NCBI GenBank assembly: GCA_944472135.2
Contig: CALYDD020000394.1
Location: 186,001-250,000, forward strand
Length of the DNA stretch: 64,000 nt
Origin: Trichobilharzia regenti
Taxonomy: Eukaryota; Platyhelminthes; Trematoda; Strigeidida; Schistosomatidae
Reading direction: 5' to 3'
How positions within the stretch are numbered: position 1 is the first letter of the stretch; the number at the start of each line of letters is the position of its first letter. The notes under the pieces are model-generated. The model did no database searches, was not told the DNA's origin, and saw only the letters and a list, made by a program, of their open reading frames with translations. Positions 25,714-51,104 of the stretch are shown here, in pieces. The position numbers and the translations under genes are program-made.

Positions 25714-25721
25714 TATAAATA
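25714..25721 (+). promoter_or_regulatory. TATA box of the candidate micro-exon gene
   Basis: A perfect TATAAATA motif lies 56 bases before the preferred start codon (25,777). A start of transcription about 25-30 bases downstream would fall near 25,745. That would exclude the earlier in-frame ATG at 25,738 from most transcripts and leave a 5' leader of about 30 bases. Such motifs also occur by chance in AT-rich DNA. Confidence 0.45.
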
Positions 25722-25776
25722 GTTCTAAAACCAGATCATGTTCACATTTATTTATTCGGTTTACCCAGCTATAAGA

Positions 25777-25837
25777 ATGTTATTTGGCCTTCTGTTCTCA
25801 CTGTTAACATTAGTGATTATCACTGAAAATGCCACAA
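25777..25837 (+). CDS. MEG exon 1: signal peptide
   Basis: Codes for MLFGLLFSLLTLVIITENAT plus one base, followed by the donor gtaagtaaag. The peptide has a clear hydrophobic core and a polar end with an NAT glycosylation sequon, as expected of a cleaved secretion signal. The in-frame ATG at 25,738 would add 13 residues. The TATA position and the better signal-peptide shape favour 25,777. The exon ends in phase 1, which all later micro-exons match. Confidence 0.65.
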
Positions 25838-28800
25838 GTAAGTAAAGATGTTTTTAGAATTCACTTATTACTGCATACATAAGCAAATTTGCAAGAATTC
25901 ACCATTTGTAGGCTACTAATTTTGCTAACTGAATAAGTTTGCCATTGACTTTTCCATGGAATCTTTTAGTTATTCTTAAAATTCATATATCGATACACTT
26001 AAGACTATGACTTAAAAAAGAGCAAACGGACAGGAATATTTAGAAATGCACTTGTGAATCAAAGTTCAGATGAAATGACTTAAAGTTGTGAAGTGTAAAA
26101 CTATTCCATAACTCTGGAACATTTGTAAATAAACTTATTGGTCAATAATGCGCATCTATGGCACAGTGGTAGAATTCCCGCCAACCACGTATGTGCTCTG
26201 GAGTTCGATTTCCGGCCGATCTCCGACCCTTTATCTCGCTAAGCCAGTAATAAGGCTGGTAAGGAGGGAAATTTAAGCATGAGGCTAGCAACCCTATCCC
26301 ATGAAAATAGACAACAGTCATGCCGAAATGTCAAGCCTCTAGCCTAAAGCCTTGTGTTACACTGGGAACGTGCAGGAATAAAAAATTGGTGAGATGTATC
26401 AAACATTAAAAGTCCATCAAGTAATACAATGCGTAATAAGTCAGTTTGCCTATGAATTTTGATCAAGGGGAAGGAGAATTTCCTTCTGCGCCTTGTGAAA
26501 CCAGGTAGACGTGGAAAACGACGTGTTTCACATATAACCGAAAACTTCTTTCTTAACTCCGCAAAATTAAAGTCCACTGTGAATTTTAAAGATGGTATGG
26601 GAGTTCTAGAATTGTAATATTCCAAAGTCGGCTTTTATTTTTATGATCGATGGCGAACGGCATTTCAATAAGACATAGATCCGGTAGACGAATGGCGGAA
26701 GAAGGACCCCAGAGACATATGCATTATTTTTATATTGTGAAAGGTAGGCGAACTGAGATGTACATCGGAATCCGAAATTGAAGTGACAAATAATAAAATT
26801 CCTCTTATTCAAGAGATATGGAATAGAGACAAGCGAACAACTAACTATTCATGTAGCATCAAAGTATTTCTGAATGAAGGTTTCGTCAAGCATACTGATG
26901 AAGATTCCAAAACTAATCGTCGAAGCTCAAATACCATTAAACATTTCTTTGGGACTAATTTGTTGGGAGAGGCTATAGCAGTTTATCACTTTGTCAGTTG
27001 TCACTGTGATTACGTTATGACACTTGTTTTCATCTGGAGACTTGAGTTGTAGCTGAAGCTGAATGGTTGATATGAGATCTCATATAAAATGATAACTTGA
27101 TAAGTGCTACATTCATACTGACATTTTGCAAATTACTGAGTGGAAAAATGTATGTTTAAGTCAAGAAAGTTTTGCAATTCTTACAATTTTTACAGCTGAA
27201 GGTGAGTAACATGCTTAAGCTTGAATTTTAATTAACCTGTGAATAATTTGTTGCTTGTCTAAACGCAAAGGATTGCTAGAATACAGTCTAAAAGGATGCA
27301 ATGAAAGTAACTAGTATACTCAGTTAAAATATTACCACAATCTTTATATGTAACTGAAAACTTCAACATGTATCTCTTCAGATCAGTAGTTATCACATTT
27401 AAAATGTTACGTATTTTAAAAGGTTTCTTCAATAGTTCTCACATTTGTTTAAAAAAATCAAGATGCAAAGTACTTATTAAATACCTCCTAGTTCAGACTG
27501 TACTCACTGCACAGCTAGCACTTAGGCTGTTCCCTGATTTCTCTGGTTTAATATTATTGTTTCCAGAGACTTAGATTTGATAACAGCCTTGTATTAATAC
27601 ACTCCTTGTGATTGGCAGGCAAGTTATGTGTTACTCTCAGTAATTACTCACAATAGGACATAAATCTTATGCTTTAAAGCTGACATCGAAGAATATGTAA
27701 CTTCTTGAAAAAGCCTAAAACATTCATATACTAAAACGCTTCCAAAAAGAAGATTATTATTTGAAGAATGAATCCACTGACTTTCACCATCAAACTCGTT
27801 TGTAAGTGAAGTGAATACACGTAATTCACTCCCAATTTGAACAATCATTGTCAAAATTTGTGTCAGCCGATACCACCTGGAGTAAGATTACTAATTAATA
27901 TTTAAAAGGAATGCTTTTCTCCCCTATCATATCAACAAATTCACTGATTGAAATCACTTAAATCTATAATATGTGAGAGGGTGATGAAATCAAATGAGCA
28001 GAAAGACAAGTTATACAAGAAAAAAGGTTAGTTGAAACATAGCTGTATCAAATAAGCACAGCTAAATGTATGTTTTAAAAGACGACACTGATTCGAAGTT
28101 GAAAACAGAAGACTACTATTTGAATTTCAACTCAATAATCTATGCAAGACGATGAAAGTAAGTAAACGTGCATTATTATTTAAAATATATTGAAATACTT
28201 TTTATTTCATATTATTCATTTGGGAAACGTCAAATGAAACTTCCAAATCAAATTAAAGACGTTTGTAAGATAGAATAAACTAGATATTGCGAGCAAAGTG
28301 ATCCACTATTTTATTGATAAAGCGCTCTTAACAGATAGAATTTCCATATCTGGGGAAAACATGCACTCTTGCACTTTCTTCACACAGCAACAGCCACTGT
28401 ATCGTATTATGTATGGCTGCCGACCTGTAATTCACACACCTTAACGTTATATTGCAAATTTTGTTTTATTATGAACCTCTAATCTACATGATGTTTCGAG
28501 CCTAATCAATTTGGAACACTTATAAGATATCCGTGAATCTGTCATATTTCAGAGTAATTTAAAAGCATATATTCAGCATCACCTTAAAGTATGTAGAGGC
28601 TGTAGTTTTAAACAGTGGGGTGTCTCTTGCCAACGGCTCTTAGTTGCCTTCTCATATGTCTTTGGTCAGTACTGCTGTATTTACGTGTAACGGTGTGCAG
28701 CTCAATTAAGATGGCATCCAGATATACGAAAGATTGGTACCGCTAGCAGTCTAATAAATGTGCCTAAATTCTATAAAACCAGGAGAATCATGTTGTGTAC

Positions 28801-31800
28801 AGAAGTTATTCGTTCTTGCTTATTTCAAGTTTTTTTAAAATTTTATTTGCCATATTCCATTTAACGATTGAACAATTTAAAATTTTTCAAGCTTTATTAA
28901 CTCTAATCTACTCATTTCATTTACCATCTTAATACATTTGATGTAAAAAAAATTCAGGTATTCATTCAAATATCAGAATTGACTAAGTCTTGCTGTCATC
29001 TGTTGGACAGTATTGTATACTCCATCAACTCGGAATTCATAGTCATACAATCCAGTAATCTGTCACTGCGAAATTCCTAGTTAATACAAGTTTGGCAAAT
29101 AAAAAAAGACGGAATGTGCATGCAAATACATCCGTAAGATTACAAAACTTTAATCATCGCTTAGAGCATGTACTTCACTGAAATATTTATTTCAGCTTTC
29201 ATATTGTATTCATTTTCTCACACGCATTTCTCAATTGCAGGATCACGAAAGATTCGCAACCTACTCATGTCTCCTATACTGACCCAATGAAGTCTGTCTT
29301 TAAATCTGTGTTGATGCGATAACCACAGTCGCGTCATATCAGCCTGGATCCACCACTGAATGCTATGATTGAAAAAATCATTTCTTCCATTTATACATGT
29401 AACTGCATTTGTGAACATCCCACCTGTATGAATAATGTGTACAAGTAGGAATTGAAAATGCTGGCCACTGAGGTTTCAGCCACCATTTGATAAGTGATTA
29501 TGCTGAGATTGACTTTCTTAAGTGGACTAAAGCCTGGTTAAGATAACAACGAGTAAATCTTATCAGTTGTTGGTGAATCTTTTGATGAAATAGACTACTT
29601 TCACTCATGTGTCTGCTTACTTGCGATGGTTAAAATGCTCGATCATTCTGTTCAACCATTACTGAAAACTAGTGACTATAGATACGGAAGAAGACTGAAT
29701 GAAATAAACAAGTAGCTGTGCTTAGTTTACATCTGCGAATATGACATAACACTACGTGACCAAGTGATCCCATATCACTGACTCCATTCAGTTTTCAAAC
29801 TTTATTGTCAACAAACCACTAATTACTCATCAGACGTTAAATTGATTTAGAAATAAATTCATAAATGGGCTTCAGTGGTGTTATCGGGGAATGTTCAATT
29901 ACTTAAAATGTAACCAATAAAAATTACGGATGAATGCCCAACAAGTTTAATTCAACGATATAAAATTCCCCTTGAAATCGATACAAAGTTTAGGTCAATG
30001 TGATTTTCAACCTGACCGGATGTGTAGTATTTCGATGAAGTGATATAATGTTGAAAAATCGATATAATTCTCAGGCGAGCAGGTTCATTTACATAGATCT
30101 GAGACTTCCGGTTTTTTGTGTAGTGTTGACCACCGAACGATTATCTTCAATACAATTTGCATACAGGCAACATTGTAGAGTACATTTATATTAACACGTT
30201 TCGTGATACTATCTGTGATGGTGTCAAATATTTAATTCCTTGAATTAAATGTCATCATCTCTGAAAATACTACTGACATAAAATACAGCAGTTTAATTTT
30301 CTAACTGCCCTGTATCCTTGCAGTCAAGGTTTGTATCTAGAAAATACCTCAATCTTTTTAGTGCTTCTGGGCATACATTAGTTTAAATATAATCAATATT
30401 TTTCAGTAAATTAAATGGGAAAATTCAATATACAAACATTTAGTATGTAAATGTGAGTCAGGCATATCTTATTCACTTTGGCAACTTGATCGTCCTTTTA
30501 GATTTTCAATGTTGGAGTTGCTGCGAATTGACGTAATCTCAAGATCAGTTTATGAACAAAACTCTCAGTTATTAATTTAGTTTACTCAGCTTGAATGACT
30601 AAGGTATCCATTAACATGTCTCGCATTTCGCGCGGTATGTTTCCACAATTCATAAAACAACAAAACTACTTGTTAACATTTTGGTGCTATGCTGACGTTT
30701 ATCGGGCACTGTTGTGTGAGTAGGATTCCCGTTGACAAGTTTCATCCGTATTTAATGTTTAGCTATGTTTCTCAAATAAACATGAACAAGAACCATACAT
30801 AGATTTTATACGCAGAGAAATGTGAGGATATACAAAACTGGCATTAGAACGAACTTCACATTCTCAATTTTCAAAAAGAGACTCATCATTTTGGTGACAC
30901 CTGATTATTTATGTAATTCATAGAATTTATCCCCATATTTTCAAATGCATAGCCTTAGGAAGTGAGTTGACTTATTTGAATTTTAACTTCTTGAGAAAGC
31001 TGTAATAAAAGACTTAGCCTCTGGATGAGCGAAAAATGATACTAGTTTCATTTGGACATTGTTACAGCCCACTTACTAATAACAGCCTATAATTATGTTT
31101 CTTTGACAAGTACACATGTATTTATTATAATTCGACGTGTGGATAATGAGTGAGACATATGGCTTTCACAGTGCATCGAAAATTCATTCTGTCCCCTGCA
31201 GTTAATTTATCTGACTCAGAGATTGCTTACAAAGACTTCATTATCTCCTCTCACTATCTCCTGGATGCCACAATATACTGCCCACCTCGACCTTTCCAGC
31301 TGGGGTCTCAACAGAGGGTCACGGTGTGCGATTTCACTTCAGTGTACCTTCAGTCCAGTAAATTTCATTAACCTGTGGAAATATCTGATTCAGTCAAGTT
31401 TGTGTACGTTAAAACCGCCATCTGAATTTTGTCTACTAATCAGGATTTCGATCGCTTAACAGTGTTGCGTAAGTCGGCTATTCTTAACTGTTTACTGAAT
31501 GAACACAACTGAAATTTCAATTGTCGCACAAGCGAAAGCCATTAGAGATTAAAGGTATTTTGAGGAGAGAAGGTAATCAGTACTCCAACTTTATTTTCAT
31601 TCCATATAATTCAGCAGACAAAGTGATTACATTATTTCCTTCAAAAGATAAACCACAGAGACACTGTCAGTTTACTTCATTTGAAGCTTACACTGTAACG
31701 AGACCCTCATTATGTTTCAATGTGTCCCCTTAAAGAATATGGTAAGTAAACAGTTAACCGATGGAACATGCATTTCTAATGTCTGTGATTGCTACATAAA

Positions 31801-34800
31801 TCAAACAGCACAGAATAAGTGTCAATAAAATTTAAAAAATGGCAGTTTCAGGTTGTTGATAAGTATTTATGTTTTCAAATGGACATATCCCCCTTGATTA
31901 TTATTATTATTATATCCTTTAATTCATAGAGGAACATAGGGCTTCAGCTGCGCGTCTCCATTGCCTTCTGTTTTCTGCCAACTTTTTCACCCCGCTCCAA
32001 GTCTGCCCACATGCTTTCATCTCCTCTTCACATGACCTCTTCCAAGTCACCCTTGCACTGACGACCAACTCGCCGCTTCCCTTTCGGCCTGGTTTCACTC
32101 GAGCAATGGCTTGTCTAGCGATGTCACTTGATGGTTTCCTCAGAGTATGGCCAATCCATCTCCATTTCTTCCTGCCTATTTGTTTCACAATCGGCTCCTG
32201 GTTAGCTCGCTCATTGCCAGAGATCCGTGTTGCTGATCTTTTCTGGCCAGCCATATGATCTTGGGTATTGAGCGAAGACAACTGTTAATGAAGGTCTGAA
32301 GTTTGTTTGAGATGCTGTTTGTAACGCGCCAAGTCTCTGATCCGTACAGTGAGTAGCACTGACTTCATATTGGAGTTGAAAATCCGGATGTTATTTTTAA
32401 TGCTGAGTGCTGTTGACTTCCACACAGACTTAAGAGTAATGAAAGCTTGTCTTGCTTTTCCGATTCTGGCTTTGATATCCTCGTCAGTTCCGCCTGTAGT
32501 TGAAACAATGCTTGCCATGTAGATAAAGGAGGTTGTTTCTTTCAGGTTCTTCCCATTTATGCTGATTGTTGTCTGTTGCCATTGTTTTCTCTGTTGGTGT
32601 CGGCCAGGAATCGTCATCACCTCTGTTTTGTCCATGTTCACCTGAAGTCCTATCTTTGATGCTTTCTCTGCCAGCTTGTTGCTTTTAACTTGCATATCTT
32701 CCAGAAAATTCTCTATTCTGAAAAGATATTTTTGTTTCTAAATCAACCTGCTTTAAGTTCAAAAACGTGTGGTTCCTGTCTATTCAATAATGTTTTGTAG
32801 ATTTTGCTTGTGCTAATTGTTTTAAGGCAGGTCCGCAATAATATCAATAAAATATCATTAAGGCCAGTGTAATAGTGCCGTTTTAAAAATGAATTCCAAT
32901 AACATTACTCCACCTAAGTGGGTCAATTCCAGTTGTATTTTCCTTGCAATTATAAATGTGAATGCATTTAATTTCAATTAATTTCTGGAATTCGGTCGAA
33001 CGTCTACTTATAAGTCCATATGAACATCATTTCGCCAAAATATGGACAAGGAAATGCTTGCGTGGAATTATTGCATCTTCTATGATAGGACTGCGAGAAT
33101 AAAATGTTTTTGAAGAGTGATCGTCCATCTTGTGTAACATTTCCTTATCATGAATTCGGATTTCACGACGTCTGAAGTAATTTGCGAGTGTCATTTGAAA
33201 CTGCTTTGGACAACAGTACTAAATAACATTTGAAAACAGAATAATTCTCATACAACCGGTTCCTTTTATTAGTTTGAAGAGAGAAAGAACGAACATGTTT
33301 GCAGGATGATATGAGCCCGTTTAATTTCGTGGATACTTATCAACTGCATACATCCTAAACAAAAGGAAATTATAAGTTTCAAAAACGTTTTGGAACATAC
33401 TTTTCATAATTACTTGGACTTATAGATAGAAGGTATAAAGAACATAATTCCAGAATTTGCTGTAAGTAGACAGATTATTTAGTGTCAAAACAACAACTAC
33501 TTTTAATTCCTACCAATTACTCCTTATGATCGTGGAAAAGTTGTAACCAGTTGAGGAGAATCCTCGAAATAATAAACGATGAGCTCATATTATCCTGGTA
33601 CAATTGTTGTTCTTGCTTTGTTCAAAAACCAACTAATTATATATAGTGGAATTAGATGAGAGAGGTTAGAGTTCAGCTTTCTAATGGGAAACACACATTG
33701 GTTAGAGGCATATTACAGGGTAAGGGCAGAGAACACAGTGAATTTACACGTCTTGTGATGGAGAGTTTAAGAGGGTGGGGTTGAATAGTGAAGTAATATT
33801 TTTTAACTTAAACAGACAATTTAGTAGATTTAGAAACTTGAAGGTCAAAATTGGATAGAATGTTTTGTAACAAGACAAACACATAGGCATACTGACAAAA
33901 AAGTAAAACAAAATTCTCGTTTACTGAAATTATTCTTTTAGTGGGTGACAGTCTGAGATGTGATATCTCAGTGTTCTCTGCGATTTGATGTGCAAAAAAT
34001 AAATCAAGGATTCAGGGAACCAAAACATAGTCAAATCACACAAGAAGAGGCAAATATGTGTTTAAAAAAGCAATTTATACTTGGAAGTAAAAGTGGAAAA
34101 TTCTTTGAAATATTTCAAATAATTTTGTCATAGAATATAGAACTTCAACGGTAAATTTCCATTTCACTCTGTCCTCTACAGTGTCCTTTAGCCGCCTCAG
34201 TGACTGATCACAAGCTGTCATCTCCGTGTCACACTCAACTCTTAGTTGCTCAATCTAGTTCAACTCGAGTGTCTGGAGCACGATATCACTCAACAGACGT
34301 CTCAGTGTGTTTCCGATATATATATCCACTTTTTCTTGGCTTTTTTAATGGGAAATGAGTCCTTGAATTCGAAAAGTTATTTTTCCCTTCTCATTCTCAG
34401 CTGATCTTTAGCATAAAGCGAAGGCGGGTGCTGATAAAAGTATAAAGCACGTGTGAAACGCTTTTATAACTAACTCTGCTATTATAAACAATGATTCTTT
34501 CCAAAACATCAAAAATCTGTTACAAAGAGATGAAAAATGAAACGCCTATAAATCTGAGCTTCCTCAAAGCATGCTTATTTCTTACAAGACTGTTTGATCA
34601 AGTGTCAACTGATACACATAATATGGAACAAGCCTCTGTCAAAGTACTCATCTTTTATAGTTTCATTGCCAACGAAATTCCTAATTATACACTGAGACTA
34701 AATTAATGCTGTGAAAATGAAAAGGCTTCCTTGTTGTTATCTTCAAATTTCAACAATTTTTATACAGATGGAATGACCGTGCGGTCTCACCATTATGAAT

Positions 34801-37800
34801 ATCTCTTGGAAGCGCAACCAACGGCATATGTGAAATGATGGTTTTAATCTTCATTCAATCTGTTGGGTATACTCAACAAAGGGTGGAATATACATCAACT
34901 CAACTACATAGGAATATCCTGGGGCTAATTATTATTGCTAGAGATGCAAAATAATTATGTGAAGAATATTTCAAACGCATATAAATTGTTCATACATTAT
35001 GCATTTTAAATTTGTAGCAATTTGTGCACTCAGAGTATTAATGTTTTCATGAAATGAAATGTCCGAATGCTAAAGTGATATCTGTTGGATTTCTCACCGG
35101 AAGCTAACATTTTCTGAATGTCTGGAGCCCATAAAATAACAGTGAATGATGAATGGGTTTGTGTAACACTACATAGTACGTCTATTTTGAGAAAAAATAC
35201 TTAAATACGTGATGCTGTTTGATAAATTATGCTTCAAAGTTAAACACTTTTCTTCAACAAGTAGAAGCATACTATTCTAAAGTAGGCTTATTTTCCTTAC
35301 TTATCTCATTCTAGTATGTAGATGTGAGTGCAAAGAAGCAACTCAGTTTCCTAATAAATCATTTTTGGTGAATTTGTTTACTTGTTTTTCGTTCCTGCCA
35401 TAAGTGGACATCATTAGGAGACCAGTTTACTTTCAAAAAGTGCACCAATAAACATAGAATGTTGAGCCTGCATTACTGATATGTTCATAAAAAGGCTTAC
35501 CATTGCTTTAAGTAATGCATTTGTGATTTGTAAAACATCTCCATAAACACAGTTTTAGAAAAGTTTGGTTGCTATTCAGGTTTCACACTCACAATACGCT
35601 ATTCAGGATAAAATTTAAAAAAAAACAGGCATTAAATTGGTAAAAACCAGAGCGAGAGTCGAATGAAATTTAAAGCGTTAGTCTCAAAAGGTAAATCACA
35701 AGTAAGACGGATCCACATACCTGTTCCGATTGTAGGCATTTCAGTCTTTTCTGGCAAATAGTTTATATGCGTAAGTTGAAATATAAGTAAAATAAATAAA
35801 TCTTTGAACGCATTTCGCGGTGTTTTAGTCATCTGAACACTGCATTTCACCATCCACAGTGTTAAAACCGAGAATTCTTTTATCAGTTTTTCTCGTCCCT
35901 TAACTTTCATGAGTATATTCGAAAATCTAATTAGGCCAAAATTAGACTTTAAGTTTGATTCCATATTAAAGTCTGTTCAGTTAAACACGATTTAAATCAC
36001 GTCGCAGTGTCTACTGAATCGCAGATTTACAAATCCTCACAAAGTAATTAAAACCAGAATTCTGTTGATTGCACTTGTAAGCCTTACGGAAAAACAAGAT
36101 TATTTTGACTTGCTGGATATTTGGCCTTCAAATGCTATGTCTCAGAAACAATTCCGCAGAGAGTAAAAATACGTTATCCTCATACTACGGATCCGGAAAC
36201 AAGCTCCACAAACCCTTTTTAATTCCTGTTTAGTTCAGTCTTTATTCATTCCATCAAACCGAATCAGAACTTCATAAATAATCGTTCAGCTAACAAACCG
36301 TGCCGGTTGTGGATATCGATATACTATGTCCTCAGGTATGAAAATGTAGACAAACTGGTGACGGAAAATTAACGATTAAATGGAAAATGTAGACTGATCT
36401 CTTTGAATGTTGGGCTTGAAGAATGAATATGGGAATAGAATATAATTTTAAGCTTTCAGTCTCATATCTTTTTTTTCTAATAAGATTATATCTTAAGAAA
36501 CGATAGACAAAGTATAATCGTCAGGAAAAAAACAAATTCTTACCACTAGCTGGCTTCAATCACAAATTCTCTGGAAAACCAGTCATTCCGCCTCAATCTG
36601 GGACTCTTCGGTGGTATGCATTCACGAATATTTGAACTCCCAACCTGCAAGGAGAGCTCATAGACTATTCAGCTACCGGAAATAATCATAAGGTTCATTG
36701 CTTGCAGCTTCTCCCCGTTTGTAACGTATTGGTCAGACACTCACCTGTGTCATCTCTTCTGCTTAGAACATTAGTGGGTGTTTGTTGATGAAGAGTCGAA
36801 GATCGGGACAAAACAGGAGACCAGTGCTTCTTGATTTTCCACTGATTTTCTTACCGATCCATTCTGGTGATCAAACCAGTAAACAATCAAGTCCCAGAAA
36901 ACCAACACTTAAAAACGCATTTTTTAAAGCAGATAATTTTATTCATATGCAACTTTTAATGTTACGAAATCTACATTCGCCTATTGTTTGTCATGTTAAA
37001 GCTTTCGGTAAGTAAACAGCTAGCTAAGCGGAAAAGTATATATGATGACTTTGATGATTACACAAATGAAATTATATAACATCAATATTACTAGAACTTA
37101 TGAGATGGAAATCTCTGGAAATCGACCAACATTTATCTTTATTTTATTGATTGGAATACAATGCTCTTGATTCTCAATGTGAATTGCGCCTAAATATTTA
37201 AGAAACCTGTCAATGATGTAGAAATATGAATGGCTTCGCTGCATGAAGGGCAGTTGTGAGCTTCTGTGTGTCAGCCTGCCCTGTCATTACAATAAAACAG
37301 AAACTCTCACTGAGGCACATCTCTTAGGAAACCAATTTGGGCATATATTTCAACAACGCGTTAAATTATAAAATGACAGTTTATCCTGGTTTCGTGACAA
37401 AGCAACTGAAGATTCCAAGGAGTACATTTCTTAAACTGCAGTCACTGGCATTCAAGCGAAATATCTGACGCGACATTCTGGGATCTGTTACTGTTGTTCA
37501 GCCATTTATGTTCAACGAATTCACAGATGAGAAAAAGTCAGATTTTCTAAAACCTCCACAGTTTGGAGACTGTATTTTGTCTGAAACTTCCACCAACTTG
37601 CTAGTGAATTATTTTCTTAAAATGTGTAGGCACAGTACTCAATTGAAGATTCTTTTATTCGCACAATTGGTGTTATGCAGAAACGTTTAGGCTGAGATGC
37701 ATTTCTGTCATACATATGTGGAGTGGCAAAAAATTTCTACTTCAGTGAATTGATTTAAAAAAAATTTGGCCCCGTAGCGAATGGCGATGATCGTAAGCTT

Positions 37801-40800
37801 CAGTTATCCTTGTTTTTGTAATATTATTTATTTATTCCTTATCATTGACATATGAAAATTTGAGTAAAGAAATTAATATTAGTGCGAAATTGACTATAGA
37901 TGTATAATTTTAGTAAATTACATTGAATCTACCGGTAAATGTCATTCTTTATCATAGCTGTTTACGCATTGAAAGAACAAAAGCGTGGAAGCCTTGAGAT
38001 ATCTACTTTTGGCTTAAAGCGATGTAACTGAATTTGAAATAATCGATAATATATAAGAACTCGAGTGAAATGGAACACAGATCCAAACGATTATGATTCA
38101 CGTATGACCAGACTAATAAGTGAGAATAAAGTTAAATTCAGCCTTAATCATTTTATTTACTTTAGTGATAAACTCCTTTTTATATGTGGTGTAACAATGC
38201 AATAAATGGAATTCATTTTCAAAATTAACCAGTAACTAAAGGTACGTCTAAATCTCCCATTTAATGTGTGTGTGTAGCTTTAACTGAATGCATAGATTCG
38301 ATTGCTGAATTCTGAGCATAAACTTTGAATTAATGAAACAGATTGACGATTAGCAAAATACTGGGCAAACGTTTTTGATATAGCTGTATCCTCTAAGCTG
38401 CATGGTTTCGTTTTGCGAAGCTTTCATTGTGCTACTAAACAATATCTTTGGTGCATGCTTTAAATTAAAATATGCAAAAAAAGTGTCTAGGTAGGGCAAT
38501 AAAAGCTTCGCAAAGAAAACATCCAGCTAAGAGAGCACAAATACATCAAAATCATCCACCTAAGCTGCAGATCGTCTCTTTTGTAACCAGGCAAACTGTT
38601 AAATATAGTTGAAGAAGATTCAAACGAACTCATGAGTTTCGAGATGACAAATAAAGTGACCAGGACATTTTGATAAGCATCAGTTTAACAGTGACTGTCC
38701 GAATAATCATGGGCTTTCGAATAACCAAGTTGTTTGCTAACCCAGAAAACCTTCCTGCTTATTATAAAGATTTACAGCTGACCTTCAATAACCACTGGAA
38801 TACAAAAGTATTTAATTCCACTTTCATCCAATGAATTCTGATTGAAAGACAAAACTTTGTTCAAACTAGAAAACTTACAAGTGCTAGACATAAAGTTCTA
38901 CCACATGAGTGAAATGACCAGTCAATGGACTGATCAATAATTTCGTTGTGATGATCACAGGTCACTTGTTTCTGAGCTTTGGATAATGACTACTTACTTC
39001 TTTATAAAATGATTTCAGAAATCTGGTGATTAGAGATTTTGTGACAAAATACCGTCACAGAGGGACAGAGTCCTTTAAGTTTGTATTTATAAAAACAGTA
39101 CGTTTGTGAATGTCTTCAGATGATCTAAGTACGTTTCATTACTGCATAAGTTGAAATTTGAAATTTATTACACACTGAAAAACAATTCAGACAATGTGAA
39201 TTTCTGTTTCCTAAGCAGTTTGAACGTTTTCTTTAAATAAAGATCCATTCTGAAAATGATATTGATATAGGTGAAGTATTTGAATGTACTAGGTTTTATT
39301 TTTGAAGAAGGATCGAAAGTTATTTATTTTATTGAGTGGGAAGGTATAACTTCACATACGTTCAAACACATATTTTCTCTGATATTCCTGGCAACTTCCT
39401 TAACAGTATATATTCAGAAGAATTCTGAAACATAGTGAATGAAACGTCACATAGTGGACATTTCTTATTCGTCAATCATCAGGATAAGGAATATAATAGC
39501 TGAGTGAAAGGCAGTCAACTCGCTTCGACTAATAGCTGAAGCAGGATATTGTCGATGTGTTATTTATTGAAAAATTTAGTTTGGTCTAATGTTTGTACTT
39601 TTGAATTAGGCGTAAAAGCAAAGGACTACTTTGAATTTGTATTTTACATTTTTAATTCGAATTCTCTTATTTCTCAGGAGATATAAGTAAGGTGGATAAT
39701 AGCATCAAAACTAAGTAAAGTTTAATTTCAAAAACTCTGGTTAGTTGAAATAAAATGTGGAGAAAGTATTAATAGTTTTGCACACAACAAGTAGGCGTTG
39801 ATTAAATAAAAACCATTCTACAAAGGTCTAATCGTTTGGTGAAATTATTCATCAAATCTTGGGAATACTTCAAACACTATAGTCTCTGGTAATAAGATTG
39901 ACCTATTCTTTAAATTGACTTTATTAATAGTACACTGGAAAATATGTTTAAATAAACAGAGTACAACTTTAAGGATTATCAATGGTGAGAACCGAATGTT
40001 ATTCTAATTGCAAAGACTAAAAGCCTGGATTTCCTCTACTACACCATTTCATCTCCTATTCGAGGAAATCAAAAAGTATTCCATTGTCTAACTTTCTCAT
40101 GGTGAAACTTTCTGTCAACGATTATAAAATAATATCATTTCAGTGAGAAAAACGTTAACAAATCACGTTCACATCCATCATGTGTCTTTTTAGTGGGAAA
40201 GTGTGAGTCATGTCTTACTTCAGTGTTTGTTTTCATTCAAGCCAATTCGGGATTATTATTTGACAGAAAGATACATTGAGAACAACCAGCACTTCAAGCA
40301 ACTTCGTCATCCCCTATGAAGGTGTTGGAGGTGTATTGCTTTTATATAAATATCTAATTTCACTTGCCTAAAAGTCAGTTAAACTCAATAAGCTGGAGTG
40401 TATTTTAATATTGTGTTCAATGTGTATCTTTATTCTCAGAGGGTTAAAACAATTACCCTTTTACACGATTCATTTTGTTAAAGTTCGTCATCAGTATTTA
40501 CCACTTGTTCTAATAATTATTTATGATACTGATTAACTTCTACTTGTCCCAACATATTCTACCTAATTTTGAAAATTCCAATTGTGAGAACACAATACTT
40601 GTAGCAGTTGATCAATGTTGTAACATCGCCACAAATGATGCAAACGTCATCTACGTACCTTGAATACAGTTTTAAAATTTCAGTGGTCCATCATACTTCA
40701 TCATTCTCAGCGCTAGTTATGAGATAGTTTGTCGACAATGAACTCAAAAGAGATCCCATTACTTTTGTTTGTATATGGTGTCCCTGAAGATGAATTGTAC

Positions 40801-43800
40801 ATTTAGAGTAAACCGCAGAAGCAGTTCTTTCAAGCATGTTTGTATTCCGGTGTTGAACTGATTGTCGTCTATAAATTTACACAAAGAATAAACAGTTTGT
40901 GCACGTGTGACCCTGGCGAAAACTTATTCAGTCTCGAAAGACAGAATACTTTCGTTTGTGACGCTAATATTGTGTATGCAATCAATGTATTGGAAGGTGT
41001 CATGAAGCAGATTCATATATAGTTATTTATTTAGCGTTTCAAGATATCAGTCAATAATTTTGCAGCAGAGTGCTAATAGGAACCGGATATTTTTATTATT
41101 ATTAGGTGTAGTAGGTGACCAACTTTGGTAAATCGTAAAAACTTGGTGTTATTGAACGAGTTGATCCGTTATAACCACAGAGATCAAAAGCAATTGCCAG
41201 GTCAGTTTTCATTCTTTTCGAGACATTTGGAGGCTGTTTTTCAGTCAGTTTAGTTATAGTTCTTCTGTTGAGAGGTTTAGAAAACTTACTGTTGTAAGAT
41301 ACTAAATTCGTCATTTTCTCCATGTAGTCTTTGCCGTTATGAAGAACCAAGCTAGCACTGTCGAGAGGATGAATTATGTTCAGTTCTTTTTCGTCCCTTA
41401 ATTTTTAAATACATAACTAGTCATGTGTGAATATTCGTGTTTTTCTAGATAAAAGTAAGTAGGTAATTTGATGAAGTCTCTGTAAAGCCTGTGCTGCATA
41501 TTTGTGAGTTGGATTTTTCCATATATCCTTCACAATTATTATTGTCCCTGCTTTTACCATTCGATTTTAATATCACATTCCCTTCCATTTTGCTACGTTT
41601 TGGGTATAATGCATTGAATCGGTATTGCTTACTGGAATAAATTGAGAAGACAGTTTATTACTGTTTAGCATATTTATAATTGTATCAACATGATTGCCGA
41701 CAATTAGTTGTTTCAAAACTATTGGTAAAAGAATTGTACTGTTTTAATACTTTCCATATTCTGGAAGCGAATTCATATGTAATCCTCCACTACCATTGGG
41801 TCTGCTTTTCTCAGACTTGTGGTACAGTATTATCCGGACAATGTTCTGCTCTCACAACTTCGTACAGTTGCATATATTATCACATTATTGTACATCTATT
41901 AAGCGTACATAATATGAAGCGAAAGGTTTGAGCAGTTTTCTGTCTTTATCGATTCTTCATGGTACGTGATGAAGCCTTTCCAGATATCTCACTTCAGATA
42001 ATGAATTATTTCCTTCTTTTTTTAGACGATCTTGGTAAGCCTCTGAATATATGTGAAATATCAGAAAAATTAAGAAAGAAAGTAAATAAGGAATAATAAA
42101 ATGGTAAAATGTGGAAATTTCATGTAAATTACTGTCACGGTAGCTGAAATGGCAGTTACTATTTCCTTTGAGTGCAGTAATCCTGAATAATGCACTTAAA
42201 TCAACGTTCTTTTGGTCCGATTACTTGAGTACTTAAGCAACATGATACGTCCCGCAACAAAGACAGCAAAAATGCATCTTAAAATACTCAGAAAAATGGA
42301 TGTTTCTCTGATATTCTATTATCGAGATATACGTTAGACTGCGGAATTCTAATTTTGCAATGTTTTCTAGGTCAATAATGCAATTATCAAAGTTTGGGCA
42401 CCCTTGATTAACAAATGAAACTCTTTAATAACAAGCTTTAATGCGAATTGCAGCGTTCATCAATTTTAACTTCTTCATTATTTCGTTTTGTCCAAGTTTT
42501 ACCAGATGTCATATAGGATAATGTCTACCCATAAAAAGCCAGTGGTACTCATGATTGACTGAACATGCATTCAGTAGTCATTGGAATACAACCATTTGAG
42601 TTATTCCGAAAGAGATAATTTTTCGAACGTCTTAAGCTGTATTAATCATTCAAACAGTTTGGAATCTTCAGTACAAACGATGTATTCACTTTACTCAACA
42701 TGACACAGTAGAATTCGTCGCAGTCGATTTTCTAATGAATTAATTTAATTATACAAAAATGAAGTAAATCCTGAGGATGACTGGTTTTTTCTCCTTAAAT
42801 ATTCACGAGACATTTCATTGTGAAATCTATTCATAAATTAGTTGGTTTGCACCACTGTTCCCCCTTGTGGTCTCAGAAAAGAAGTGTAAGTTATTTCGAA
42901 GCATGGCTTTCATTTTAATAGAGAGATTCAAATGCATATTAACTGGTCATACCAATATAATGAGGTTAATGATATTTGGGAATAAAATCTGTCTCACCGT
43001 GTGTCAGATTGATTGCAAATAACATTGCTCATGTAGAAAAGCAAAATAATCTTTCATCAAATGAAAATATTCCAAACAGATATCGCCTGAATATGGAATT
43101 TGGACTGACTTCCACGAAACTAAGGAAACTTATTTGAAATAATTAAGTCAGACTCAAGAATTCAAACATTGAAGTGCATGATCATGTGAGACTACACCAC
43201 AAAGTTTGAACAAACAAGAATTGAAAGTTGGACATAGTGGTTTTGTCTCAGAATGCCAAAGAAATCAAGTGTAGAGGCATGAGTACTTCTGGAGGAACAA
43301 AAATACCAAATTCAAAACATATAAGTCAGCAATATCCCAATAAATCATAGGAATGTTTCAAAATTCTTTGGAATCAATTTTAATGAACCAAACCTCACCC
43401 AACTATTATTTCAAAATCGGTCTTTAGGTAATTGTCTTATATAAGAACGAAACTATCAACGAATGCTTTGTTTACAAAAGCATATTTTCCAAGTTTAGCG
43501 GCGCTAAACTCAAAATTTTAATTTAGGACAACAATCCGTGCTTTTTTATTCATTTCCGTTCCCAGTGGAAAATAGGACTTCAGGCTAGCGACTTGAAGTT
43601 TCTGAAGCATTGGTGTTTATTTCAACATGATTGAGTCACTAGCCTTATATGCATACTTCCTTCTTAACCAGTCTTATTACTGGCTAAGTGAGGTGAACCA
43701 GTGCGTCTACCGCGAATCTAACTGCGGACCATATGCATTAATCGAAAGAAATGAAATCAGTCTGTTGCGTAATAGCTTCCCAGTCATCAGAAAAACTTCT

Positions 43801-46509
43801 AAACAAAGCATTTGTCATTCGGTCTATATATTCACCCATTTGAAGACATTCGTGATAACTTCATTTATATAATTGCGTTAGATGCAGCTAGTTGGACTAC
43901 TGTTTTAGTCGGTATTATAATTATTTCTGATGATTAGTGATTACATTTACAAATAGTAACATTCTGCACTATCTATAAATGTACATAACTGAATAATGTT
44001 GTCATGAGAAAAACAGCTGAACACGCATTGGGTACACACTAAATATATATTTGCTTGAAAAGGGAATGTCTAAGTTTTCACAATAATTTAGTTTATCTGG
44101 GAAGTGCAAAGCACTTGCATAATAAGTGTCGAAAGATCTGACCATACATTTATTTGTCAGATTAATTTTTTTGAAAATTGATAGATCAATTAAAGAAACT
44201 AATCGATTTTAAGTTATTCGTCATTAACACCAGTGCGATCTAGTTAGACTAATGTCGTCATTCGTGATATAAATGGTTTAGCTATTTCTAGTGAATGCTG
44301 AAAAAGTTGGAAAAGAGAAACATTTTTCAGTGACAACAAATTCGAAAACATGTATTTCCCGATAAGAATTTAAAACAAGCAACGAAGGCTAATAATTAGG
44401 ATCCCATGAGTTCATCGAATTCCAGTAGGACTCGTCAGCTGATTACTCTAAATACATGGATATATATACTTTTGGAATTACATTAGGAGATGTAAGACTG
44501 ATAAGCGAATAAACTACATTGAATTAGACAAGCAGAAAGGCAGTTGCAATTGTTTTCGTGGTCATATTCAAACAGATAACGGGAAAGAGGGTATGGTAGA
44601 TCAAAATAAAGATAAAGTGCACTACGATTCAACTACACGACTTAGATAAACGATTAGTCATTAGAGAATATATGAAGAACTGCAAGCAGAGTAATATCAA
44701 CAGTAATAGGTATAGTAATAATAAAGTTGAAGTCACTTAAGATAATGCTAGTGAAAAAAGATAGTTTTAAATGAAACAAGAATATTAACAGTTATAAGGG
44801 GCAGAATAAAGTGTTGTTCATATTAGTAATAACAGTTAATAAGTTAAACGTATAATCATTTTAGATTCAGAGTGACGGCCATCTCCTTTGGTACACAGAG
44901 ACCTAGTTTATAAACTCGAATTGAACAAGCCACCTCGGCAATTGTAAATATCTTCATGTTTCTTTATCTGCTGACAATAGTGTATAACTTAACAGCATTG
45001 ATTTCATGTCTACAGTCCATAAGATGTTTTGTTATTGGGGTTTTTGACACATAGCATTCGGCTGTTCTCAATCACTTCGACAAATTCCCTATGATGCGAG
45101 TAGAAAATTGCCTTTCTGTAGGACCTATGTATTTGCTTCCACAAGCATACTCAAATTAATATCCGCAGTTTGAAGTGTCGAGGATTGGTGACTAGTCTTT
45201 CTCAGATTGTTTAGACACTCACTTAGTGGTGTTAAGGGAAACAGTAATGCAGCATGATCAGTTCTCTTGATGGCTTTATCGAGTCTTCGTTTGACTACTA
45301 ATTGTGAATCATCCCCTTTGAAAAGCAAACTGATATACACAGATTTCTCCCAAACTATTTGGATAGTTTTGTACCAACCAATTTGTATCAATGAATATTG
45401 TATCAAACAAATTAAGAGTCATGTACATGGGAACAAAGCATAAGGGGGTACTTACTCAATTTTGAATCCAAGAATTTTTAAGTAGCTTTGATTACTAACG
45501 ATGCCTTTTATGAAGATGATGAAAGCAATGCAAGAATCAATATTCCAATCTTTATTTAGTAAAACCTGGGCATCACTGCTTGGATAGTTTAAAATCCTGT
45601 GTTAATTATAAAACTAAGTTCGGTTTATGACAAAATATTAACCTATGTTTTGAATATTGTGCACAGATGAACAGTTTATTTTAAACAGTACATGTGAGTT
45701 AGGTTTCAAAGTTCTTCTAATAGTAAGCCAGAATCAACGCAATCGTTTCATTGTTTTTATACCAAATAATTGTTAGAAAGGTAATAGGGATTAAGATTTA
45801 TGTGTGGTTTGTGATTGGAATATCATTTGTTTTAAGGCGTTGATATTTAAATATAAATTTTAATGTATTCTCACTCGAGATAGTCTAATGTTATATAATA
45901 ATATGTAACATAAAATGTCATACATCATACACACAGTGGATTCTTATTCGAATAATAATTTTTTCAGAGGATTCAGGAAACACAATAAGAAGCCTATGCT
46001 TATTTAAATTGGTGGAAAAGAGAGCGTCAAAAATAGTTCCGAACACAAGGTTATTGAAGTTATCAGAAAAGAAGAAATTCCTTGCACTCGGCTTTTTTAA
46101 TTACTGACAGCGGATATGGTTTCTCTTTGTATCTGAAGGCTGTTGATTTCCACCAACTGACGTGTAGCTGTTGAAACTGGGTGAAGCAGATCTATCTGTG
46201 ATTCATTCCCGATTACCAAAAATGTCTAAGAAATGAATGGAGAATTCAAATCGCCTTACATATACATGCTCGTTTAACGATGAAATATTTAGAGAGTTAA
46301 ACATTGAGACAGTATTCACCGTAGATATTTAAACCAATATGTTTTAATAAGAATATTGAGAAAGAGGACTCAGGGTAGCCTTTTCTATGTTTATATTTTC
46401 AGTAACAGGATGTTTTCATACTCTGATTATTAATGTCAACTTTCATAATTGCCTTCATCTCGAAGATAACCGATTAGTACAAACCTTCCATCTTCTGTTT
46501 GTCATTTGA
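25777..46509 (+). CDS. Candidate micro-exon gene (MEG), secreted protein; whole-gene span
   Basis: A signal-peptide exon is followed by at least fifteen AG/GT-bounded candidate exons of 6, 9, 15 or 21 nt and a candidate terminal exon. Each internal exon is a multiple of three and enters and leaves in phase 1. Joined in order they contain no stop. This arrangement is the definition of schistosome MEGs, whose products are secreted, mainly from the oesophageal gland and other intra-mammalian-stage tissues, and vary by exon skipping. Predicted features are a 20-residue signal peptide ending in the N-glycosylation sequon NAT and a short hydrophilic middle rich in Asp, Glu, Lys and Asn. The introns (about 0.1-3.5 kb) hold mostly antisense retroelements. 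I cannot assign it to a numbered MEG family. Seen: splice-like signals, sizes and phase. Inferred: that they are used. Individual exons are less certain than the overall pattern. Confidence 0.6.
26152..26383 (+). mobile_element. tRNA-Gly-derived SINE (copy 1), in MEG intron 1
   Basis: The head (gcatctatggcacagtgg ... gttcgatttccggccgat) resembles a glycine tRNA with box A and box B and a GCC anticodon position. A SINE body follows, shared with copies at 43.6 and 55.5 kb: agccagtaataaggctggta, gcatgaggctagcaaccc, and the end block cactgggaac with an A-rich tail. The acceptor stem no longer pairs, so it is not a working tRNA gene. Confidence 0.82.
27196..27201 (+). CDS. MEG micro-exon, 6 nt (CTGAAG)
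   Basis: The acceptor is cttacaatttttacag (pyrimidine-rich) and the donor gtgagt. In phase 1 it gives Thr-Glu with exon 1. One of the best-supported units by splice-site quality. Confidence 0.58.
27867..27881 (+). CDS. MEG micro-exon, 15 nt
   Basis: Sequence ccgataccacctgga between the acceptor aaaatttgtgtcag and the donor gtaaga. Phase 1, giving Ala-Asp-Thr-Thr-Trp. A good acceptor and an acceptable donor. Confidence 0.45.
28149..28157 (+). CDS. MEG micro-exon, 9 nt (ACGATGAAA)
   Basis: Donor gtaagtaaac, the same extended donor as the 31.74 and 37.00 kb exons. The acceptor ctatgcaag is weak in pyrimidines. Adds (Asn)-Asp-Glu in phase 1. Confidence 0.48.
28259..28264 (+). CDS. Possible MEG micro-exon, 6 nt (ACGTTT)
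   Basis: Acceptor aaattaaag, donor gtaaga; intron of 101 nt before it. Begins with ACG like the 28,149 and 42,026 exons. If spliced directly to AATATG (31,736) it would create TAA, so its use requires the 30.4 or 31.46 kb exon. Lower confidence. Confidence 0.3.
30444..30452 (+). CDS. MEG micro-exon, 9 nt (TATGTAAAT), near-duplicate of 35,315
   Basis: Acceptor caaacatttag, donor gtgagt. The unit tag-TATGTAAAT-gtgagt differs by one exon base from the unit at 35,315, suggesting exon duplication. Joined directly to 31,736 it would give TAA, but joined to TGTTGC (31,463) it stays open. Confidence 0.4.
31463..31468 (+). CDS. Possible MEG micro-exon, 6 nt (TGTTGC)
   Basis: Acceptor cgcttaacag (modest), donor gtaagt. 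Adds Leu-Leu or Met-Leu depending on the preceding exon and keeps phase 1. Confidence 0.35.
31736..31741 (+). CDS. MEG micro-exon, 6 nt (AATATG)
   Basis: Acceptor atgtgtccccttaaag, donor gtaagtaaacagtta. The donor and about 20 bases beyond it resemble those of the 37,002 exon (gtaagtaaacagcta), pointing to a duplicated exon unit. Encodes a Tyr codon in phase 1. Confidence 0.55.
31897..32710 (-). mobile_element. RTE-type LINE 3' fragment (copy D), antisense in a MEG intron
   Basis: The best preserved C-terminal copy. From 32,695 down it has MQVKSNKLAEKASKIGLQ, NMDKTEVMTIPGR, NGKNLKETTSFIYMASI, GGTDEDIKARIGKARQAF and KNNIRIFNSNMKSVLL. A frame break follows near 32,283, and then ERANQEPIVKQIGRKKW, WRWIGHTLRKPSSDIA, ARVTWKRSCEEEMKACG and AAEALCSSMN with a stop. 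The (TTA)n tail is at 31,897-31,912. The frame break separates two otherwise open parts of 136 and 120 codons, so decay is mild. Confidence 0.9.
33441..33461 (+). CDS. Possible MEG exon, 21 nt
   Basis: aacataattccagaatttgc plus t, between ggtataaag and the donor gtaagt. Phase 1 and open (reads His-Asn-Ser-Arg-Ile-Cys). The acceptor lacks a pyrimidine tract, and an internal cag would give an 8 nt exon instead, which would break phase. Confidence 0.28.
34115..34480 (-). mobile_element. Old RTE-type LINE 3' fragment (copy H), antisense in a MEG intron
   Basis: Heavily decayed. The minus strand reads VDIYIGNTLRRLLSDIVLQT and DTVEDRVKWKFTVE, which align with the RTE C-terminal blocks W-x-W-I-G-H-T-L-R-K and A-E-D-R-V-K-W. 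The 3' end near 34,130 retains a match to the subfamily end gaacatagggcttcaactgc. Much older than copies A to G. Confidence 0.65.
35315..35323 (+). CDS. MEG micro-exon, 9 nt (TATGTAGAT)
   Basis: Strong acceptor (cttacttatctcattctag) and strong donor (gtgagt). Phase 1, encoding Cys-Arg in the middle. Near-duplicate of the unit at 30,444. Confidence 0.55.
36540..36760 (-). mobile_element. Decayed hammerhead-type SINE remnant (Sm-alpha-like), antisense
   Basis: The minus strand at 36,585-36,611 reads ccgaagagtcccagattg then aggcggaat. This resembles the hammerhead core C-U-G-A-N-G-A, the stem II strand GUCCC, a loop, the returning strand and G-A-A-A, each with changes. A tRNA-like stretch upstream (ggttgggagttcaaat) fits a pol III promoter. 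Schistosome Sm-alpha SINEs carry such ribozymes. Core residues are altered, so no cleavage activity is expected. Could be a coincidental resemblance. Confidence 0.42.
37002..37007 (+). CDS. MEG micro-exon, 6 nt (CTTTCG)
   Basis: Acceptor tattgtttgtcatgttaaag, donor gtaagtaaacagcta, sharing its extended donor with 31,736. Encodes Phe in phase 1. Confidence 0.52.
38233..38241 (+). CDS. Possible MEG micro-exon, 9 nt (TAACTAAAG)
   Basis: Acceptor caaaattaaccag, donor gtacgt after AAG. In phase 1 it reads Val-Thr-Lys; in phase 0 it would start with a stop. Moderate support. Confidence 0.32.
39678..39686 (+). CDS. MEG micro-exon, 9 nt (GAGATATAA)
   Basis: Very strong acceptor (attctcttatttctcag) and donor gtaagg. 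Reads Gly-Asp-Ile in phase 1; phase 2 would meet TAA within or at its end, so the phase matters. Confidence 0.52.
   Translation, partial: EI
40194..40202 (+). CDS. MEG micro-exon, 9 nt (TGGGAAAGT)
   Basis: Very strong acceptor (tcatgtgtctttttag) and strong donor gtgagt. Reads Met-Gly-Lys with the preceding exon. Among the best units. Confidence 0.58.
40440..41430 (-). mobile_element. Degenerate Penelope-like element, RT region, antisense in a MEG intron
   Basis: From high to low coordinates the minus strand gives KLRDEKELNIIHPLDSA, VLHNGKDYMEKMTNLVSYN, TKLTEK, ITPSFYDLPK (the P-x-x-Y-G-L-P-K block), and FETE with TRAQTVYSLCKFIDDN. Near 40,655-40,690 it has the catalytic block LYSRYVDDVCIICGDV. 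Stops and frame changes are frequent. Weaker similarity may continue to about 41,900. The GIY-YIG part is absent. The intact YVDD is notable in an otherwise dead copy. Confidence 0.8.
41449..41454 (+). CDS. Possible MEG micro-exon, 6 nt (ATAAAA)
   Basis: Strong acceptor (attcgtgtttttctag) and donor gtaagt, phase 1. It abuts or may overlap the antisense Penelope-like remnant, which raises the chance of a false hit. Skipping it also leaves the frame open. Confidence 0.35.
42026..42034 (+). CDS. MEG micro-exon, 9 nt (ACGATCTTG)
   Basis: Exceptionally strong acceptor (atttccttctttttttag) and donor gtaagc. Reads Asn-Asp-Leu in phase 1. Resembles the 28,149 exon at its start (ACGAT). Confidence 0.6.
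42877..42885 (+). CDS. MEG micro-exon, 9 nt (AAAAGAAGT)
   Basis: Strong pyrimidine-rich acceptor (gttcccccttgtggtctcag) and donor gtaagt. Adds Glu-Lys-Lys in phase 1. It ends in T, so the next exon must not begin with AA, AG or GA. Confidence 0.58.
43553..43775 (-). mobile_element. tRNA-derived SINE (copy 3), decayed, antisense in a MEG intron
   Basis: The reverse complement shows the SINE blocks cttagccagtaataagactg, a stretch equivalent to gcatgaggctagcaac, caagtcgctagcctgaagtc and the end ccactgggaacg. The tRNA-like head is partly recognisable (gttagattcgcgg in place of box B). More diverged than copies 1 and 2. Confidence 0.75.
44292..44365 (+). CDS. Alternative terminal exon of the MEG
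   Basis: Acceptor ggtttagctatttctag. In phase 1 the frame stays open for 23 codons (Asn-Ala-Glu-Lys-Val-Gly-Lys ...) to a TAA at 44,363. The charged composition fits the preceding exons. An AATAAA lies about 140 bases downstream near 44,505. It competes with the 46,403 exon; both could be used. Confidence 0.28.
44885..45430 (-). mobile_element. Penelope-like element 3' fragment (linker and GIY-YIG), antisense
   Basis: The minus strand gives SVYISLLFKGDDSQLVVKRR, LDKAIKRTDHAALLFPLTP, and then after a frame shift CGY-stop-FEYACGSKYIGPT followed by RQFSTRI. This is the Cys-pair plus Y-I-G core and catalytic Arg of the nuclease. The order relative to the 40.4-41.4 kb RT piece is wrong for one element, so they are separate insertions. 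Inactive. Confidence 0.8.
46403..46509 (+). CDS. Candidate terminal exon of the MEG
   Basis: Strong acceptor (ctatgtttatattttcag). With the preceding T it starts Leu and stays open in phase 1 for 34 more codons to TGA at 46,507. The tail ends in a hydrophobic run (Phe-His-Leu-Leu-Phe-Val-Ile) with two Cys upstream. AATAAA at 46,517-46,522 follows only eight bases after the stop. A 35-codon open frame is not rare by chance, so the acceptor, phase and polyA motif carry the argument. Confidence 0.42.
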
Positions 46510-46516
46510 AACATAA

Positions 46517-46522
46517 AATAAA
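46517..46522 (+). terminator. Polyadenylation signal of the candidate MEG
   Basis: AATAAA just after the stop codon of the candidate terminal exon. The motif is common in AT-rich DNA. Confidence 0.35.
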
Positions 46523-50725: not shown

Positions 50726-51104
50726 AATTGAATGTTTATTCTGAAAGCATACCAGTCACAACAGCAGAATACAAATAAGCATATATATATATGCATATCG
50801 ACTTGCAATCGTTGAATCCCTGGTTGATTAATTGAAGGTGCAACGTGAATAATGCAGTCAATATTGCTGTGTTTCCTAATCGCTGCAAAAATTCGAGGAT
50901 TATATATGTAGGACTAGGTGATGCATTTGGACGAATAACTTCATCAGGAATCAGAATGAATTTATTTCCCGCATTATAGTTAAAACAGGTGAGTTCCTTA
51001 TTATATCTCTGAAAATGATCTCCGTAACACTGTGTAGAATGTAGATATGATGGAGAAGATTTGGAATTTAGAATTTAGATTCTTTGTAGTTATTATTTTA
51101 AAAT
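50726..51104. other. Spacer between two RTE copies
   Basis: About 380 bp with an (AT)n run near 50,785. No gene recognised. Confidence 0.4.

Follow-up and report, generated by a model that had tools for sequence, protein, structure and literature searches.

Micro-exon genes (MEGs) are described as a class in which ~80% of the coding region lies in symmetric exons of 6-36 bp and which encodes secreted or anchored variants (PMC5825161). Their introns reportedly range from 100 to almost 5000 bp and the vast majority of their exons measure 15 bp; a motif following the signal peptide, FL(phi)(phi)FX6Wp(K/H/R), is given for all MEGs, and Cys/His motifs such as CX5/7/9HX3/5/7C for the red clade of Schistosoma mansoni MEGs (PMC10526429). 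MEGs are also reported to be duplicated and to lie near transposable elements (PMC4350168). MEG-8.2 of S. mansoni is described with a signal peptide and 17 exons, 15 of them micro-exons (PMC12998952), and schistosomatid MEGs outside the S. mansoni set, including Trichobilharzia transcripts, have been reported as well (PMC6362228). MEGs are found in flatworms, and the shortness of their exons makes them difficult targets for gene finders.

Here we analysed a 64-kb stretch of the Trichobilharzia regenti genome (the window), which sits on contig C377; coordinates are positions in this window unless a contig is named. Judged by its architecture, the locus very probably holds a micro-exon gene of the MEG type, one member of a small family in the T. 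regenti genome. The probable gene seems to span about 38,000 bases, from ~25.7 to 64.1 kb, and a small secreted product is predicted. As in the MEG class, short symmetric exons that follow a signal-like exon account for most of the coding sequence: exons whose length is a multiple of three (3n) and the stop exon together make up 281 of 342 coding nt (82%), against the published ~80% (PMC5825161). Introns, by arithmetic from the model's exon coordinates, measure 438-4145 nt, compared with the 100 to almost 5000 bp given for the class (PMC10526429). The copies on C377 and C2, the distant relatives on C6 and the putative retroelement ORFs nearby likewise recall what is reported of MEGs (PMC4350168). 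Unlike the class, for which 15 bp is given as usual (PMC10526429), 21 of the 25 exons after exon 1 are 6 or 9 nt long. MEG-8.2, in which a signal peptide precedes a run of micro-exons, resembles the gene with its signal-like exon, but the micro-exons of MEG-8.2 are given as 12-33 bp (PMC12998952); host-cell-lysing activity is a reported feature of MEG-8.2, to which the present gene is likened by architecture alone. The Trichobilharzia MEG transcripts, reported not to be close to S. mansoni MEGs (PMC6362228), are set beside the gene by description only.

Results

Copies of the gene in the assembly

Copies were sought in the window's own assembly (954 Mb in 548 contigs), where exon 1 matches in five places: the window copy itself (W), W2 on contig C2 (100%), A2 on C377 and A on C2 (96%), and B on C2 (94%). 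A2 and A, which are 99.9% alike over long matches, were handled as one copy. Both copies on C377 are in plus orientation, whereas on C2 A is minus and W2 plus, and A and W2 cease to match exactly at runs of N. Because these C2 counterparts end at N runs and the orientations differ, the assembly may be wrong in the number or order of copies. A2 may be a paralogue of the window copy, or the two may be ancient alleles. A further window-like copy (L034, C2:109199937-109200849), absent from the exon-1 matches, is 99% identical over 917 nt of the 27.4-28.4-kb stretch and 97.5% over 27,169-29,533.

Predicted gene model

Joined from first to last by position and reading frame, the exons give a model of 26 (Table 1): exon 1 with 61 coding nt, four exons of 6 nt, seventeen of 9 nt, one of 24 nt, two of 27 nt and a stop exon of 30 nt, with further exons possible in unaligned introns. 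Each of the 24 internal exons is 3n in length and in phase 1, and 21 of them are 6 or 9 nt. With all exons included, the predicted coding length is 342 nt including the stop, or ~113 residues, as an open frame in a model and not a transcript. A first-pass annotation of the window had proposed at least ten to fifteen exons of 6-21 nt. The ladder of micro-exons stands and is even longer than proposed, but the size range does not fit: the final model has no exon of 12-21 nt and does include exons of 24, 27 and 30 nt.

Table 1. Predicted features of the micro-exon gene and its surroundings (window coordinates; "kept" means AG, length and GT retained in the named copy).
Feature	Position	Strand	Remarks
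Predicted TATA-like box (tataaat)	25714..25720	+	ends 57 nt before ATG; read directly, function presumed
Exon 1, coding part, 61 nt	25777..25837	+	ATG, hydrophobic signal-like stretch, donor gtaagt, phase 1
Micro-exon, 6 nt	27196..27201	+	kept in B; ~375 nt holding the exon absent from A2
Micro-exon, 9 nt	28149..28157	+	kept in A2 and B; intact counterpart in 1/3 distant C6 loci
Micro-exon, 9 nt	30444..30452	+	kept in A2 and B; alignment gaps just upstream
Micro-exon, 9 nt	30953..30961	+	kept in A2 and B
Micro-exon, 6 nt, weakest	31736..31741	+	internal duplication with 37,002 alone; not placed in A2 or B
Micro-exon, 9 nt	35315..35323	+	kept in A2 and B; donor gtgggt in both copies
Micro-exon, 9 nt	35762..35770	+	kept in B
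Micro-exon, 6 nt	37002..37007	+	kept in A2 and B
Micro-exon, 9 nt, newly added	38233..38241	+	equal length in B; weak donor gtacgc in A2 counterpart
Micro-exon, 9 nt, newly added	39120..39128	+	kept in B
Micro-exon, 9 nt	39678..39686	+	kept in A2
Micro-exon, 9 nt	40194..40202	+	kept in A2 and B
Micro-exon, 6 nt	41449..41454	+	kept in A2 and B; donor gttagt in B
Micro-exon, 9 nt	42026..42034	+	kept in A2 and B
Micro-exon, 9 nt	42877..42885	+	kept in A2 and B
Micro-exon, 27 nt, newly added	45667..45693	+	kept in A2 and B
Micro-exon, 9 nt	46849..46857	+	kept in A2 and B
Micro-exon, 9 nt	50980..50988	+	kept in A2; donor gtgtgt there
Micro-exon, 9 nt	55134..55142	+	kept in A2 and B
Micro-exon, 9 nt	56585..56593	+	kept in A2 and B
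Micro-exon, 9 nt	57568..57576	+	kept in A2 and B
Micro-exon, 9 nt	59118..59126	+	kept in A2 and B
Micro-exon, 24 nt	59760..59783	+	kept in A2 and B; donor gttagt in B
Micro-exon, 27 nt	61288..61314	+	within 147-nt conserved island in B
Stop exon, 30 nt	starts 64,099 (C377:250,099)	+	99 nt beyond window end; stop at same codon in W and B
Inverted copy of the 3' portion of the gene	849..13022	-	matches 60,826-72,167 (window-extended); copies of last two exons
ORFs with DUF6451 (three) and Pao retrotransposon peptidase (one)	2485-2958, 22470-23030, 32285-32737 (minus), 21517-21906 (plus)		around and inside gene

As read from the translation, the ATG of exon 1 is followed by a largely hydrophobic, signal-like run of 14 residues; a second in-frame ATG lies upstream, at 25,738. 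Within exon 59,760 an inner AG that would give an 18-nt exon from 59,766 is also conserved. In the stop exon the A2 sequence is identical to W, and a donor-like site directly follows this exon in W and B; no 3' untranslated exon or poly(A) site was found for the gene beyond it. An internal duplication pairs 31671-31874 with 36937-37140 (a 204-nt match, 61%), placing the 6-nt exons 31,736 and 37,002 in register. Exons 30,444 and 35,315 are near-identical and stand in the same order as this 6-nt pair, as if a 9-9-6 block of exons had been duplicated.

The 3' limit had been set at 46,522. A gene ending near there, conceivably as a short alternative form, would have its last exon at 46,403-46,509, which has a strong acceptor, 34 open codons, a TGA and an AATAAA 8 nt beyond. 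This terminal exon was rejected: A2 has no AG at its start, and B has an in-frame TGA after 8 codons. Moreover, the ladder continues downstream of it in the same frame with nine conserved exons, counting the stop exon, and we regard an end at 46.5 kb as unlikely. A last exon at 54,792 was likewise discarded, its AG missing in B.

Conservation of splice sites and exon lengths

The sequences of A2 and B were retrieved piecewise and aligned to W, and exon status was read off the alignments. The clean test concerns 16 candidates named before any other copy was seen. AG, length and GT are kept in 12 of the 13 that could be placed in A2 and in all 10 placeable in B, and the six exons that had been singled out as strongest (27,196, 35,315, 39,678, 40,194, 42,026 and 42,877) retain all three in at least one copy.

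Conserved AG..GT units of equal length were then counted by length modulo 3 (k mod 3, in the order 0/1/2) for k<=30, in blocks of <=80% identity, at a donor score >=3 and a pyrimidine sum >=16. This gave 20/1/2 between W and B (P 1.6e-7) and 17/1/1 between W and A2 (P 6.2e-7), against antisense controls of 2/2/0 and 2/4/0, respectively. Three other settings gave 22/2/3, 19/0/2 and 7/1/1 for W-B, and 17/1/3, 14/0/1 and 8/1/0 for W-A2. Some of the non-3n units are nested within model exons (42,882; 45,689), and conserved 3n units also occur outside the model, at 27,141 and 27,812 (with B) and at 27,619, 28,527, 29,523 and 37,778 (with A2).

In blocks of <=80% identity, both splice dinucleotides stand at equal spacing in 15/15 model exons in A2 and 20/21 in B, compared with 153/886 and 99/634 other AG..GT pairs (a background of 16-17%). 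Because the later-added exons were found through AG/GT conservation, this comparison and the intactness of the exons reported below are partly circular, and past 59 kb A2 adds little because it is nearly or fully identical to W there. Two units listed as exons in the first-pass annotation did not hold up: in 31,463 the AG and GT are not kept in A2, and 32,334 lies inside a repeat copy. The 15-nt unit at 37,778 aligned with no copy but A2 and, for want of a second one, was not included.

Reading frame and predicted peptide

When the exons of W, A2 and B are read one at a time, inner codons contain no stop in phase 1 (0/103), compared with 8/150 in phase 0 and 15/103 in phase 2; phase 1, the phase set by exon 1, is the sole stop-free frame. 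This result, together with the splice sites and lengths kept in the other copies, bears out the original reading of a signal-like exon ending in gtaagt in phase 1 and followed by a ladder of phase-1 3n exons. Consecutive junctions are free of stops in W (26 exons), A2 (21) and B (22), exon 1 being excluded for A2 and B; if exons of W are paired freely, 18 of 325 direct joins would create one.

The bases of the exons themselves are a different matter. Identity with A2 is 72.1% in exons (147 bases) versus 71.5% in their surroundings, and with B 71.0% (255 bases) versus 69.6%, and most changed inner codons are non-synonymous (18/22 with A2, 27/36 with B). Both observations would suit a spliced non-coding RNA with micro-exons, in which splicing is conserved and nothing is translated. 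Such an RNA would, however, leave unexplained the 3n lengths, the single stop-free phase shared with exon 1 and the stop codon common to W and B; in addition, the non-synonymous share with B is somewhat lower than in a simple neutral simulation (75% versus ~84%, P 0.066). We therefore consider a non-coding transcript very unlikely and retain the coding gene. As splice sites, length and frame are conserved while exon bases have diverged like introns, the predicted peptide is hardly constrained: judged from these alignments, it is drifting almost as fast as the introns, within a fixed scaffold of splice sites, lengths and frame.

Distant relatives of the region around exon 28,149 occur at three loci on C6, at 58999437 (L039), 59149954 (L040) and 59447415 (L038), which lie ~150-300 kb apart and match at 69-72% over roughly 150 nt. 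At this exon AG, length and GT are intact in L040, and the donor GT is missing in L038 and L039. Since two of three C6 relatives lack the donor, decay does occur in the family, and exon content varies between copies, as in the ~375 nt around exon 27,196 that B has and A2 lacks. The window copy could by the same token be a decaying one that has inherited its architecture and lost its function. Against this, none of the 25 later exons of W lacks its AG or GT (partly through the way exons were chosen), the frame of W is open from end to end, and three copies with strongly diverged bodies share the architecture; a relic gene seems to us very improbable, and we keep to an intact one.

Length bias and acceptor quality

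The preference for 3n lengths, and the good quality of the acceptors, had first been noted by eye in W alone; formal counts agree on both points. Between 25,837 and 43,000, AG-N(k)-GTRAGT units with k of 3-21 number 15/2/1 on the plus strand and 3/5/6 on the minus strand (again by k mod 3); with k of 3-36 they number 19/4/7 and 5/8/8, and with looser GTRAG donors (k 3-21) 25/10/7 and 12/12/16. If one AG is allowed per donor (k<=21), 12 of 15 units are 3n. In the best-scoring interval 13 of 14 units are 3n, two of which (22,724 and 32,334) lie inside repeat-borne ORFs; at that setting the score was matched in 0/200 and 0/3000 third-order Markov windows, both strands and all intervals of each simulated window being scanned, and for the best of all 8 settings tried 1/200 simulated windows does as well.

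Acceptors played no part in these counts and were scored as a separate check, by pyrimidines in 15 positions. The mean is 9.7 for the 11 in-frame units of 25,837-46,522 (32,334 removed beforehand) versus 6.2 for 16 minus-strand units (P 3.4e-5); it is 8.3 for 16 plus-strand units from other parts of the window, several of them later recognised as exons, and 7.3 over all 1163 AGs of the 25.8-46.5-kb region. When acceptors of >=9 pyrimidines are combined with GTRAGT donors (k<=21), the counts are 8/0/0 in 25.8-47 kb, 0/1/0 upstream and 4/1/0 downstream of it on the plus strand, and 0/1/0 on the whole minus strand. Admitting weaker donors behind such acceptors changes them to 14/4/5 in the region, 5/14/9 upstream of it and 9/15/9 across the entire minus strand: the 3n signal resides in strong donors, and weaker ones dilute it. 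A generic splice-site weight matrix returned almost no candidates and was abandoned as too strict.

That there is no gene at all, the units being chance AG-GT pairs or pieces of repeats, would agree with the two repeat-borne units, with a 22-nt two-copy match that touches exon 27,196 and with the 9-nt units found outside the limits first proposed, but is hardly credible given the simulations, the flat antisense controls, the splice dinucleotides in nearly all exons, the finding that no long direct-repeat family in 25-52 kb covers any unit except 32,334, and the fact that several of the outside units proved to be further conserved exons.

Divergence island and flanking repeats

Judged by three pairs of matching landmarks, the two copies on C377 lie ~139-140 kb apart in a probable tandem arrangement. 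Compared in 2-kb windows (C377:66001-115000 against window positions 20300-68000), A2 and W show a U-shaped identity profile, with flanks at 97-100% and a gene body at about 60-68%. Identity starts at 97.4% (20-22 kb) and 99.7% (22-24 kb) before falling through 97, 89 and 76% to 60-68% throughout 30-48 kb, where the values refer to the alignable part only (27-91% of each 2-kb window); beyond 48 kb it climbs through 78, 84, 93, 97 and 99% to 100% at 64-68 kb. The body of this island carries insertions, deletions and the loss of a whole exon, with splice sites, lengths and phase fixed. Copies from a recent tandem duplication would be expected to be evenly similar. The profile could stem from old variants whose flanks recombine or convert, or else from alleles set in tandem by the assembler.

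Inverted repeats of ~11-12 kb flank the gene, one arm at 849-13022 (minus) and the other at 60826-64000 (plus), continuing to C377:258167. The matching blocks have 97% identity over 4.0 kb, 87% over 6.7 kb and 86% over 0.7 kb and are separated by stretches that do not match; from the minus-strand arm to exon 1, nothing else of the gene body gave a match. Matches to the last exon at C377:58146 (minus) and 108200 (plus) suggest a like layout around A2. A Pfam scan of ten ORFs of the window gave hits in four, DUF6451 three times and a Pao peptidase once (Table 1); the DUF6451 ORFs we take to be retroelements. One ORF of the window matches a T. regenti protein at 91% over 19% of the ORF.

Relation to described MEGs

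In a database of 5.8 billion proteins, the signal-exon stretch had no three 5-residue words in common with any candidate of 61-194 residues, and a query with the 46.4-kb exon, rejected later, also yielded no candidate. As far as the former search reaches, it agrees with the initial suggestion that the gene is undescribed. Rfam gave no match at the gathering score, and a search of solved structures with the unspliced signal exon returned nothing. In the titles and abstract openings surveyed, descriptions stay at the level of the class, and none concerns this gene.

The post-signal motif FL(phi)(phi)FX6Wp(K/H/R) is absent from the W copy, which has no Trp in the 85 post-signal residues tallied or in the stop exon. 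Nor do these 85 residues contain the red-clade Cys/His motifs: there is no His and there are two Cys, with a third Cys in the stop exon. Because the motif describes S. mansoni proteins, its absence speaks against those families and not against a MEG-type architecture. In view of the published motifs and of the signal-exon database search, we do not file the gene in any of the numbered MEG families (1-32).

Discussion

The observations are best explained by a gene in which exon 1 would supply a signal-like peptide and end in phase 1, followed by 24 internal 3n exons separated by introns of 0.4-4.1 kb, with the stop in a final exon of 30 nt. Because every internal exon is in phase 1 and 3n, skipping, loss or duplication of an exon would leave the frame intact. 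The product could thus vary in two ways, presumably by splicing within a copy and by gain and loss of exons between copies; the latter is exemplified by A2, which is without the stretch holding 27,196, and by the 6-nt exon duplicated inside the gene. Selection would keep splice sites, length and frame and let the peptide drift at almost the pace of introns. By analogy with the MEG class, it seems reasonable to suggest that the gene is transcribed and alternatively spliced, and that its products are most likely secreted, host-exposed variable peptides.

More tentatively, the divergence island might represent ancient variants of one host-exposed locus, in which diversifying or balancing selection, or suppressed conversion, keeps the bodies apart and recombination or conversion homogenises the flanks. 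Selection would in that case preserve a splicing scaffold for variable peptides and no particular peptide. We put this forward as a possible account of the profile rather than the one we would expect to prevail.

In this work, DNA sequence by itself sufficed to recover a probable MEG-type gene whose exons approach the lower limit of size, and diverged copies of the gene then served to check it; the approach is applicable to any schistosomatid genome. Comparing the copies pulls apart a strongly constrained splice scaffold and a nearly free predicted peptide, which are usually confounded, and may thereby make it directly testable whether variation in MEGs is under selection or just tolerated. 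The U-shaped identity profile would offer a concrete place in which to seek diversifying or balancing selection.
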